This document shows positions 58,030-63,473 of a stretch of DNA of 64,000 nucleotides, piece by piece. Position 1 is the first letter of the stretch, and every line of letters starts with the position of its first letter. The notes below the pieces were generated by a model, which had not been told where the DNA came from, made no database searches, and worked only from the letters and a program-made list of their open reading frames with translations. A program made the position numbers and the translations under genes. The stretch spans positions 131,430 through 195,429 of the forward strand of contig NZ_JYOA01000005.1 of assembly GCF_000955805.1 (NCBI RefSeq), in the 5' to 3' direction. This DNA comes from Pseudomonas sp. 21. Its GTDB lineage: Bacteria; Pseudomonadota; Gammaproteobacteria; Pseudomonadales; Pseudomonadaceae.

Positions 58030-61000
58030 CTAGGCGGCCAGCTTGCGCAATTGCTGCAGCAGATCGTCCTGCAAGGCCGCCATTGCCTGCTCCACCGCCA
58101 ATGCGCGATTACCCAGCTCCCGGCTGTCGAGACCATCCTTGCAACCACCCTCGAGCTTGCTGCAGAGGTCCTGGAGCGTGTCCGCATTGACCAGTCGCGC
58201 CGCGCCCTTCATACGGTGGGCCAGCTCGGCCAGCTGCTTCCAGTCGCCAGCCTCCCAGAGCGGCCGGACCTGATCGATATCGATCCGGTTGCTGCTGTGC
58301 AACTCCTCCAGCAGGCGGCGGATCAGGCCGGGATTTCCGCCGGTCATCTCGCGCAGCGACTTCAGGTCGAACCCATCGACCCGCTTTTCCACAGCGGCCT
58401 GATCGTCGTGGGCAGATGACATCTTCGGCACTGCATCCAGTCGTGCACGCAGGTTATCCAGGCCTATGGGCTTGAACAGGCAATCATCCATGCCGGCCCG
58501 CCGGCAGTTCTCGATCTCGTCGGGCTGGGCGTTGGCGGTAAACCCGAAGATCACGCAGGGTTCGGCTTCCATCTCCTGTTCAAGCTCGCGAATTCGCCGA
58601 GCCAGACCATAGCCGTTGAGCACCGGCATATTGCAGTCGGTGATCACCAGATCGAAGTCACCCGGATGCCACAGCTGCAATGCCTGGGAGCCGTCGGAAG
58701 CCACCTCGACCTGATGCCCCAGGTGCTCCAGTTGCTGGGTCAGCAGCATCCGGTTGGCCACATGGTCGTCGACCACCAGGACCTTCAGCGACTGGACAGT
58801 CCTCGGCACCGCCACGGCGTGCCCCACCTCGCATTCGGGCAGGCTTTCCAGGGTCTGCAGCAACAGCCGCACCGTGACCGTGGTGCCCTCGCCGGGCCGG
58901 CTTTCCAGGCGCACAGTGCCCCCCATCATCTCCGCCAGCTTGCGGCAGATGGTAAGACCCAGCCCTGTGCCCCCTCGATTCGCATTACCACTACGGGCCA
59001 CCTGGCTGAAGGGTTCGAACAGCTGGCGCTGTTCATCCTCGGAAATACCGATACCGCTGTCCTGCACACTGACCTCGAGGGCCAGGCGCTCGCCTGCAAC
59101 ACGCTCGCCGTAGACGCGAATCTTCACATGGCCGAAGTCCGTGAACTTGATGGCGTTGCTGACCAGGTTCGACAGGATCTGCTTGAACCGCAGCGGATCG
59201 ATCAACACATCGCAGGCGGCTTCCGCCTCGATTTCCAGCCTGAGTTCCAGCGCCTTCTGCCGCGCCAGCCCATCGAAGACACGCGCAACGGACTCCACCA
59301 ACTCGCGCAGGTGAGCACGCTCCGGCATCAACGTCAGACGCCCGGACTCGATCTTCGCCACATCGAGGATGTCGCCGATCAGCGTCAACAGCGAGCGCGC
59401 CGAATCGTAAGCGACCTCGACCGGCTCGCGCTCCCAGTGCCCCTGGCTCGCGCGGGTGAGCGCCAACTCGAGCATGCCGATCACCGCGTTCATCGGCGTG
59501 CGGATCTCATGGCTCATGGTCGCGAGGAAGGTACTCTTCGCGCGGCTGGCTTCCTCGGCCTGCTCCTTCGCCGCTTCAAGCTGGTGGTGCAGCCGCTCGC
59601 GCTCGGTAACATCGATCCAGCCCGTCACCACGCCGGAAATATCACCACCCGGCCCGCGGTAAGGAGTGGCCCAGTAATGTATTTCCCGAACCTCGTCGCG
59701 AATCTGCAGGATCAGATCGGAGGCTACTTTCCCGTCCTGCTCCATGGCCTGCTGGTGAATCAACTGCAATGTCTGTGCGTCGTGCGCCTGCAACCAGGGG
59801 CAATCGTTGACCTGGGAACCTTCCACCGAGTCGCGCGGCATTCCGGTTTCCTTGAGGAAACCGATATTGCAGGTGACCAGTCGCCCATCACGATCACGTA
59901 CCGCCACGGGCTGGGGAATACCATCGATCAGTGCGCGCTTGAATTCGAGGCGGTAACTGAGCTCTTTCTCCGATTCCCGGCGGCGGCGCACCTTGCGCCA
60001 GAGCCACCCGTTCCACAGCAATACGATGAGCAATGCCATCGCTGCCGCCCAGGCGAGCTGGATGAATTGCTTGCGGTAGCCCTGCCAGACGCTGTCCGGC
60101 CTGTCCACGCTGGCAGACCAGCGCGTGGTGATGTTGCTCAGGTCTTCGGGCGCGATGGCCAGTAGCGCCTTGTTCAGGATACTGAGCAGCTCCGGGTCCG
60201 CCTGCGACACCGCCAGCGAGAACTGCCCGGGCTCGCTGTCCAGGGCCAGGGCGATCTTGAGATCCGGGTAATAGCGGGAGATCAGGTAGTTGGCAGACGA
60301 CAACAGGTGAATGCCGGCGTCCACCTTGCCTTCACTGATCATGGAAAGGTCGTCGACATTGTTCTCGACCTCCAGCAGTTTCACTTGCGGGTGGCGGGCG
60401 CGCATGAAGTCCGCGATGACGGAGCCTCTGGGAACGGCGACGCTGTGACCATCGAGATCGTCCAGGCTTTGCAGCCAATCGCTCCCCTCTGGCACCACGA
60501 CAACGAAGGACGCGGTCATGTAGGGGCGCGTAAAACTCAGCCACTCCTCGCGCTGGCCAGTCGGAGTCAGCGCCGCAATCACATCAGCCTTGCCCGTACG
60601 CACCTGCTCCAGCATCGCCGTGACGCTTGGCTGCGGGCGCACATCGAATTCGACGCCGGTACGGCTCTGGACAAGCTGCAGCAGGTCGGCGGCAATCCCT
60701 CGGAACTGGCCCTGGGCATCGAAGAACGACACGGGAGCCAACGCCTGGTCGATCACGACCTTGGGCCGCGGGTGACGGTCCACCCAACGCTGCTCCTGAG
60801 GCGTCAGGATGAGACGCTGGCCGGCGATGGGGCTGCCGCCGCCGGGACTCCAGCGTCGTTGAATGGCCGTCTGGGCCTGACGTGGAATCGCGCTCAGAGT
60901 GCGGTCGATGATGGCCAGCAACGTCCGGTCGGAAGCGTTCAGGGCAAAACTGAATCCCTGGCCATTGAAGCTGGCAAAGTTGAGGAGCTTGAGATTGGCC

Positions 61001-61074
61001 AGGTATCCCTGGCTGATCAGGTATTGCGCACTGAAGGCATCGCCGACGAAGAGGTCCGCCTGACCGAAGGCAGT
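58030..61074 (-). pseudogene. 5'-truncated hybrid sensor histidine kinase (RocS2-like)
   Basis: The intact part encodes the end of one solute-binding sensor domain (QADLFVGDAFSAQYLISQG), a second complete one, a membrane helix (WAAAMALLIVLLWNG), a PAS domain (DGIPQPVAVRDRDGRLVTCN), the kinase core (ATMSHEIRTPMNAV; NLVSNAIKFTD; GTGLGLTICRKL), a receiver (VITDCNMP) and an Hpt domain (LAHRMKGAARL). The layout is that of unorthodox RocS/BvgS-type sensors. Upstream of about 61074 the same frame reads only antisense of the divergent receiver gene, so the signal peptide and first half of the first sensor domain are missing. The frame stays open to 61245 without a genuine N-terminus. Expression or export is therefore doubtful. 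Confidence 0.8.
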
Positions 61075-61453
61075 CGAAGACCACCCCTTCCAGCTGATCG
61101 CCACGCAAATGCAACTGAACAGACTGGGCTTCTTCCGATTGACGCCGGCTCTCGATGCCAATGAAGCGCGCGAGGAATGTGCACGCCGCAACGAACCTTT
61201 CGACTTGCTGCTCTGCGATATCAACCTGCCGGATACTGACGGCATAGAACTGCTCGGCGAACTGGCCGAAGCCGGTCATATTCGCCAAGCGGTCTTCCTG
61301 AGTTGCCGTGATACCGAAGAGCTGCAGGCCCTGCAGAAAACCCTGCGCGAACAGGGTTTACCCGTCCTGGCCTGCCTGTCCAAGCCACTCAATGAATGGG
61401 CGCTGCTGCAAATCCTGGAAAAGGACGAGGGCCTCAGGGCGCGGGCAGATTGA
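61073..61453 (+). pseudogene. 5'-truncated response regulator receiver (RocA2-like)
   Basis: Receiver domain reading VEDHPFQLIATQMQLNRLGFF..., with the phospho-acceptor Asp in LLCDINLPDTDG and Lys in LSKPL. In this frame a stop lies at 61061-61063 and no start codon occurs before the internal ATG at 61109, so the first beta strand and the true start are gone. The acidic pocket VED remains. No DNA-binding domain follows; the frame stops at 61453, overlapping the convergent yggL by 20 bases. In P. aeruginosa rocS2 and rocA2 are divergent neighbours, as I recall. Confidence 0.78.
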
Positions 61454-61781
61454 CTGGCTGGTCCGGGTACCACGCATCGATCAGCGGGCTGAGGCTGAAA
61501 CCTGCGAGTTCCGGCTGCTGCTTCAGCCATCCGTCGATCAATTCGCGCTGCTCCTCGCTCACCGAGCCGCGCCGGGCGAGGCAGATGAATCCGTACTCGT
61601 CGCAACCGCTATAGACCAGATCGTTGGGTTCGACGGCGACGCCCGCGAATCGCTTCATGAAAGCGCCAACAGCCTCTTCGCCTGTGCCTTCCTTGTACTG
61701 AAAACTCAGTTCGAAGCCGAGCTCCTGGAACTCATCGACACACAACTTCTTGCGTAAACGACGGGAACGATGGGTCGCCAT
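61434..61781 (-). CDS. yggL: YggL family protein (DUF469)
   Basis: A 115-residue protein matching YggL: RSRRLRKKLCVDEFQELGFEL, then a domain with YSGCDEYGFICLARRGSVSEEQRELI. YggL binds the 50S ribosomal subunit in E. coli. It is convergent with the damaged receiver gene; its 3' end overlaps that gene by 20 bases. Confidence 0.9.
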   Translation of the reverse strand: MATHRSRRLRKKLCVDEFQELGFELSFQYKEGTGEEAVGAFMKRFAGVAVEPNDLVYSGCDEYGFICLARRGSVSEEQRELIDGWLKQQPELAGFSLSPLIDAWYPDQPVNLPAP

Positions 61782-62036
61782 CTGAATCTCTCCTCAGGAG
61801 GGCTTTCGCCGCTCGATGCACGAATGTGCCCGGAACATATCCGGGACTTGCGCGAACAATGTCCCGATGCGCCTCTGCGTGACGACCGGCATCCGAAGGC
61901 CAGCGCATCCTGGAACGGCTTGCGGCATAATGTGCCGCAGCTCCCGGTCCAACAGGGAGTATTTCATCTGTAGTGTTGCGCTTCATCTTTTCATTTTTTC
62001 AAGTCAATGCCCGACCACTGGGATGTCATCTTTTCT

Positions 62037-63473
62037 ATGTTCAAGTCTCTGCGTGTCCTCGCTCTCGCTACCTTATTGCCCTTCGCCTTGCCGGCCGTTG
62101 CCCAGATCAACAGCACCCTGCCCGAACGTGTACAGAAAGCGCTGAGGGCCAGCAAACTCACCGACGATGCCCTGTCGCTGGTGATGATCCCTCTGGAAGG
62201 CCCCGGTAACGCCACCTATTTCAACGCCGACGTCTCGGTGAACCCGGCGTCGACCATGAAGCTGTTCACCACCTATGCCGCCCTGGAAATGCTCGGCCCG
62301 ACCTACCAGTGGCAGACTGAGTTCTACACCGACGGCCAGCTCAAGGACGGCACCCTCAACGGCAACCTCTATCTCAAGGGCGGCGGCGATCCGAAGCTGA
62401 ACCTGGAGAAGCTCTGGCTGATGATGCGCGACCTGCGCGCCAACGGCGTGAACAAGGTCACCGGCGACCTGGTGCTGGATCGCAGCTATTTCAACATCCC
62501 GCAACTGCCGGTCTTCAACGACGACGGCGGCGACGACAACAAGCCGTTCCTGGTCGGCCCGGACTCGCTGATGGTCAACCTGAAGAGCGTGCGCCTGGTG
62601 ATCCGCACCGAAGGCAGCAAGGCCACCGTGCTGATGGACCCGCCACTGGCGAACGTGCGCATCGACAACCAGATCCAGGTGAGCAAGGCCGCGGCCTGCC
62701 CGGCCTGGCCGAAACTGCGCTTCAGCCCGGTGACCCAGTTCGACGGCACCTCGCTGGTCGCCACCGGGCAGATTCCGCAGGGCTGCAGCGCCCAGACCTA
62801 CATGTCCCTGCTCGAGCACCCTGCCTACACCGCCGGCGCAGTACGCGGCATCTGGCAAGAGCTGGGCGGCAGCATCCTCGGCAAGGACCGCGAAGGCACC
62901 GTGCCGAAGAACGCCACCCTGGTGGCCCGCGCCATGTCGCCAGACGTCGTGGAAATCATCCGCGACATCAACAAGTTCAGTAACAACACCATGGCCCGCC
63001 AGCTGTTCCTCTCGGTCGGCCGCCAATATCGCAATGGCGCCGACGCGGACGACGCCCAGGCTGCCCAGCGGGTGATCCGCCAATGGCTGGCGCGCAAGGG
63101 CATCACCGCAAGCCACCTGGTGATGGAAAACGGTTCGGGCCTGTCCCGCGACGAGCGAGTCAGCGCCCGCGAAATGGCCGCCATGCTCCAGGCCGCGTGG
63201 CACAGCCCCTACGCTGCGGAGTACATCTCCTCGCTGCCGATCGTGGCCAAGGACGGCACCATGCGCAAACGCCTGCGTGGCACGCCCATGGCCGGCGAAG
63301 CCCACGTGAAGACCGGCACCCTGAACACCGTGCGCGCGCTCGCCGGCTTCAGCCGCGACGCCAACGGCCGCACCTGGGTCGTCGTGGCGATCCTCAACAG
63401 CAACCGGCCATGGGGCGCCTCGTCGATCCTCGACCAGGTGTTGCTGGACCTCTACAGCAGCACTAAGCGCTGA
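62037..63473 (+). CDS. dacB: D-alanyl-D-alanine carboxypeptidase/endopeptidase (PBP4, DacB)
   Basis: Periplasmic class C penicillin-binding protein. The 478-residue protein has a signal peptide (LALATLLPFALPAVAQ), the SxxK motif in NPASTMKLF near 74-77, SNN near 320, and KTG in HVKTGTLN, with inserted domains between, as in PBP4. Loss of DacB in P. aeruginosa triggers AmpC induction through the muropeptide pathway that includes NagZ (gene at 16003 in this window). ATG 62037 (MFKSLRVLAL) was chosen at the signal peptide. Confidence 0.95.
   Translation: MFKSLRVLALATLLPFALPAVAQINSTLPERVQKALRASKLTDDALSLVMIPLEGPGNATYFNADVSVNPASTMKLFTTYAALEMLGPTYQWQTEFYTDGQLKDGTLNGNLYLKGGGDPKLNLEKLWLMMRDLRANGVNKVTGDLVLDRSYFNIPQLPVFNDDGGDDNKPFLVGPDSLMVNLKSVRLVIRTEGSKATVLMDPPLANVRIDNQIQVSKAAACPAWPKLRFSPVTQFDGTSLVATGQIPQGCSAQTYMSLLEHPAYTAGAVRGIWQELGGSILGKDREGTVPKNATLVARAMSPDVVEIIRDINKFSNNTMARQLFLSVGRQYRNGADADDAQAAQRVIRQWLARKGITASHLVMENGSGLSRDERVSAREMAAMLQAAWHSPYAAEYISSLPIVAKDGTMRKRLRGTPMAGEAHVKTGTLNTVRALAGFSRDANGRTWVVVAILNSNRPWGASSILDQVLLDLYSSTKR

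Follow-up and report, generated by a model that had tools for sequence, protein, structure and literature searches.

The closest described counterpart of the locus studied here is the Roc2 system of Pseudomonas aeruginosa (PA3045-PA3044), encoded by the rocA2-rocS2 operon; the divergent arrangement belongs to Roc1, with rocA1 facing rocR-rocS1, and the RocS kinases serve several regulators (PMC12051241). RocA2 was reported as a repressor of mexAB-oprM in P. aeruginosa (PMC3083521), yet a later paper does not list mexAB-oprM as one of its direct targets (PMC12051241). A modelling paper places rocS2 among clinically mutated genes that are not commonly hit in vitro (PMC13049199).

We analyzed a window of 64,000 nucleotides from Pseudomonas sp. 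21, a draft assembly of 42 contigs with a listed completeness of 100%, against the genus (25 genomes searched, this genome counted in). An earlier note on this DNA had described a RocS-type sensor on the minus strand that abuts a receiver on the plus strand, with both 5' ends absent (Table 1). This picture holds, as the flanks in relatives split at 61072/61073 and the receiver, like the sensor a truncated gene, has no start ahead of VEDHPFQL; the sensor is a hybrid sensor kinase. With 60500-61460 as DNA query, matches were obtained in 23 of 25 genomes, and wherever both halves matched in a relative, the match was split at the junction. In relatives, the segments 60500-61071/61072 and 61072/61073 onward flank an extra 2.0-2.2 kb. 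The separation was 2035 bp in G010, 2064 bp in G016, 2054 bp in G013, 2068 bp in G009, 2093 bp in G006 and 2168 bp in G023, the six relatives in which it was measured, versus contiguous flanks here; G007 has both flanks, but on separate contigs. The closest relative at the junction is G010 (91-93% DNA identity there by blastn). For the neighboring HD gene, G016 is nearer (95%) than G010 (93%).

Table 1. Features around the junction (positions in the window) and the evidence for each
Feature	Position	Strand	Evidence and remarks
rocS2 remnant, hybrid sensor kinase	58030 to about 61072-61074	-	Pfam; residues 157-1172 of G010 RocS2 at 94%; hydropathy
Open extension of the kinase frame, antisense to the receiver	61073..61245	-	From ATG 61245; ORF list and start survey
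Deletion junction	61072..61073	none	At most one shared base (A) versus G010; 2035 bp of G010 absent here; blastn split versus relatives
Single-domain receiver remnant	61073..61453	+	Residues 10-136 of G010 receiver at 90%; Pfam; frame and start survey
yggL (50S ribosome-binding protein)	61434..61781	-	Pfam YggL_50S_bp, 5.3e-32; upstream of the kinase remnant, same strand

The names RocS2 and RocA2 are used here on the basis of layout and domain make-up, not of a comparison with P. aeruginosa sequence. Relatives resemble P. aeruginosa Roc2 in having a kinase with two SBP_bac_3 domains, PAS and an H1-D1-H2 core, with rocA2 directly upstream on the same strand; they add a separate, divergent single-domain receiver. 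In G010, rocS2 (-) is followed by rocA2 (-), which encodes 208 aa with a receiver and a GerE domain; after a further 770 bp or so with no listed ORF of at least 120 aa comes the single-domain receiver (+, 136 aa). The genes for YggL and for a DacB-like protein come next in G010, as in the window, where Pfam identifies an HD-domain phosphohydrolase as another neighbor; these neighbors resemble those of Roc2 in PAO1.

Compared with this layout, the window lacks rocA2 and the 5' end of rocS2. The kinase remnant keeps the second SBP_bac_3 sensor, a hydrophobic TM-like segment, PAS, HisKA, HATPase_c, receiver and Hpt domains, and none of its 1014 codons is a stop. It thus has the unorthodox H1-D1-H2 core with PAS that is expected of RocS2; one of the two periplasmic SBP_bac_3 sensors expected is found, the signal-peptide region is absent, and no close rocA2 lies immediately upstream or anywhere else in the window or the genome, in contrast to relatives. 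The earlier description of an intact kinase core, receiver and Hpt with a single sensor left was accurate (HisKA, HATPase_c, Response_reg, Hpt and PAS exceed the Pfam cut-offs; one SBP stretch was found by Pfam in the window and two in G016).

The gene identities had to be corrected. The earlier note described rocS2 and rocA2 as divergent in P. aeruginosa and implied that the plus-strand receiver is RocA2. The two genes are on the same strand in relatives, and form an operon in P. aeruginosa according to PMC12051241; the Roc1 layout seems to have been carried over to Roc2. A truncated RocA2 is ruled out for the plus-strand gene. Its Response_reg domain (61076-61453, with the Pfam match starting at profile position 5) ends at 61453 with no GerE or other output domain, while RocA2 of relatives has GerE, and relatives contain both genes. 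The plus-strand gene is neither rocA2 nor rocR, and with rocA2 and rocS2 on one strand and a separate receiver in relatives, a complete third gene, rocA2, was also deleted.

The part of rocS2 that is missing, about 197 codons, encodes the signal peptide and most of the first sensor; it corresponds to residues 1-156 of G010 and about 41 leader codons, counted from the Met in the G016 frame. Also missing are the whole of rocA2, the intergenic region of about 770 bp and about 10 codons of the receiver 5' end. The missing DNA was not found elsewhere in this assembly. Apart from the flanks, a 2251-base G010 query across the gap recovered four matches in this genome, short or weak, each at a site also recovered as a response-regulator match. 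The 2035-2168 bp between flanks in six relatives support the earlier proposal of a single deletion that took both starts and everything between. Ancestral short forms with an insertion in relatives are ruled out, because the ends that both genes lack here are contained in the extra DNA of relatives; as a second line of evidence, the RocS2 N-terminus was matched in 24 of 25 genomes. We consider it likely that rocS2 lost its 5' part, the receiver gene its 5' end, and the genome rocA2 and the intergenic DNA, all in one recent deletion of about 2.0 kb, and that Roc2 signaling was lost with them. The hypothesized loss of rocS3 at the roc3 locus of P. aeruginosa and P. paraeruginosa is similar in the deletion of a Roc kinase gene and in domain-sized remnants, but that locus is inferred by the authors to have lost the bulk of its kinase and kept rocA3, whereas here most of the kinase was kept and the regulator lost (PMC12051241).

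An imperfect direct repeat of 20 bases is present near both ends of the missing segment in relatives (15/20 matches in G010, 14/20 in G016 and 15/20 in G013), and of 400 random pairs, 6, 10 and 2, respectively, scored as well. The junction is offset from the repeat and differs from the product expected of simple recombination between the copies, so this weak repeat evidence makes slippage possible as a mechanism, and not more.

A draft of 42 contigs could contain a false join, and the 2 kb would then be present in the isolate and the contig misjoined; the nearest comparison sequence, at 91-93% identity here, is too distant for a sister check. We regard it as unlikely, as the missing sequence is on no other contig, the genome is listed as complete and a coverage gap would normally break a contig. 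Ends that share no long repeat are rarely joined by assemblers, and the ends at the join have at most one base in common, the imperfect repeat near them being short. The loss would thus be real in the isolate.

A single event of this kind would have removed the starts of both divergent genes together with the DNA-binding regulator RocA2. In the plus frame of the receiver, a TGA is present at 61061 and no ATG, GTG or TTG occurs before ATG 61109, so that, as had been noted earlier, the reading from VEDHPFQL onward has no start codon ahead of it. ATG 61109, the sole start left, falls after the E-D acidic pair, and a receiver without this pair cannot bind Mg2+; the remnant is therefore very probably dead, even though its ORF is free of internal stops. 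The kinase, for its part, would be made without a signal peptide, the upstream region of relatives and most of the first sensor domain. Without a signal peptide, the remaining sensor will not reach the periplasm. With RocA2 gone and both receiver and kinase crippled, Roc2 signaling would be lost.

The deletion may also be real and the kinase survive in a start-shifted form. Read-through from yggL would then allow translation from ATG 61245 or from a start further on, and the resulting RocS2, located in the cytoplasm or unusually anchored, would address other regulators. The kinase frame is open up to this ATG (the next in-frame stop beyond it is at 61278), which lies about 190 bp from the stop codon of yggL, a possible source of read-through judging from its strand and position. 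Simple scans of 60900-62100 found neither terminator-like sites (0 versus 1.3 expected) nor sigma-70-like promoters (0 versus 0.2 expected, so that the power of the promoter scan is low). The absence of terminator-like sites fits a surviving kinase, as do the intact, non-decaying core and a hydrophobic stretch of 12 residues in the extension, SLFSCICVAISW, with a mean hydropathy of 1.94 versus 2.68 for the native TM-like segment; the service of RocS kinases to several regulators, as stated in PMC12051241, would provide partners. Against this, the leader would come from DNA antisense to the receiver, which was not selected for that role, no clear ribosome site was seen by eye before ATG 61245, the nearest protein to the lost RocA2 is 50% identical, and any recent loss would show no decay. 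We assign the start-shifted kinase a small but appreciable chance.

Sequence change in the remnants bears on the age of the loss. For the kinase remnant, polarized changes amounted to 31 synonymous and 9 nonsynonymous here versus 53.5 and 12.5 in G010 (Fisher p = 0.62, on 54:12), counts that assume G010 to be the sister although the synonymous distance to G016 is nearly equal (0.34 vs 0.33). Pairwise dN/dS of the remnant was 0.086 with G010 and 0.083 with G016, compared with 0.070 between G010 and G016. As a control, the HD-phosphohydrolase gene had 47 synonymous and 3 nonsynonymous changes versus G010, and 30 and 4 versus G016. The receiver counts (1:1 here versus 5:4) are too few to be informative. 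Without an excess of amino acid change in the kinase remnant, the loss is probably recent; had it been as old as the split, many more amino acid changes would be expected, unless the remnant is still used. The absence of decay thus also suits a kinase remnant still in use, which speaks against the deletion with loss of signaling that we favor.

Among the 25 genomes of the genus, this genome is the only one in which the missing RocS2 N-terminus was not matched. Identity was at least 48% in 22 of the 24 matches; those in G017 (44%) and G012 (36%) may be paralogues. RocA2 was matched at 76% or more in 23 of 25 genomes, the best matches being 63% in G017 and 50% in this genome. Among the matches listed for RocS2 in this genome, the best other one was 33% identical (residues 244-897), so no Roc1-type backup is apparent with RocS2, not RocS1, as the query; higher identities, up to 46% among the matches listed, concerned catalytic or receiver parts only. 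One cluster (G000:C22:262000-274000) was rejected as a backup Roc system. It matched RocS2 in the kinase core (42%) and in receiver/Hpt parts (34-46%), with no match for the sensors, and resembles PvrSR/RcsCB beside a chaperone-usher gene. Read from its translations, it contains two sensor kinases, a REC-EAL-like protein, a LuxR-type regulator and a fimbrial chaperone-like gene, presumably akin to PvrSR/RcsCB-CupD.

Lesions were also seen in relatives. In G018 (L122:6900-7344), the single-domain receiver lacks its N-terminal residues (match from residue 19) while rocA2 and rocS2 match at full length, so that this gene has decayed there independently. The rocS2 frame of G010 is broken between signal peptide and first sensor (L029:5193-5325, same in L043), by either a real lesion or a sequencing error, and is continuous in 13 other relatives. 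The TGA codons counted within receiver matches in G022 and G024 were rejected as evidence of lesions, since the 130-aa frame of G024 is complete and its match seems to overrun its own stop; we make no claim for G022. The G018 and G010 lesions suggest that the locus decays repeatedly in the group, as would suit a stepwise shrinkage in this genome, for example with the intergenic part lost before the operon start. Several such events are nevertheless highly improbable, given a single clean junction, undamaged remnants and no intermediate in the six relatives measured.

The single deletion looks like ordinary decay of a two-component locus, and the locus documents the probable loss of a Roc2-type kinase-regulator pair along with corrected gene identities. 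The single-domain receiver beside rocA-rocS may matter more than the deletion, since it occurs at many Pseudomonas loci and no description of it was found in the literature searched (open-licence papers only). Searching named genomes with the receiver sequence yielded 76 loci (L043-L118). A RocA2-like gene (at least 50% identity over at least 150 residues, within the fetched stretch) was present in 70 of them. In 64, it shares the strand of the receiver and follows it, with a median of 358 bp (276-444 bp) separating the match ends; in 5 it diverges from the receiver, and in 1 (L103) it is placed otherwise. The other 6 ended at a contig end (L047, L118), had a partial match (L063, L097) or remained below 50% (L092, L109). 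A RocS-like match (at least 40% over 300 residues) accompanied 66 of the 70.

The receiver alignment had 76 rows, made up of the window, G010 (one record with L043) and all but two of the 76 loci. Every row has E12, D13, D59, S87 and K114, the positions of the acidic pair, phospho-acceptor Asp, Ser/Thr and Lys of a phosphorylatable single-domain receiver, which for E and D is partly circular, EDHPFQLI being a search pattern; in the window, the acidic pair precedes the only start. We see a slim chance that Roc2-type loci throughout Pseudomonas have the divergent receiver as a conserved third member, apparently not yet described, which might for example compete as acceptor for phosphate from the RocS2 Hpt domain, and that this genome is a natural triple loss whose leftover kinase lives on yggL read-through without RocA2. 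The G010 receiver (L029:6724-7134) is of the type of about 130 aa found beside RocA2-like genes. G024 has a RocR-like gene within its Roc2 locus: between rocA2 and the receiver, it encodes a 426-aa REC-EAL protein (L120:6286-7566).
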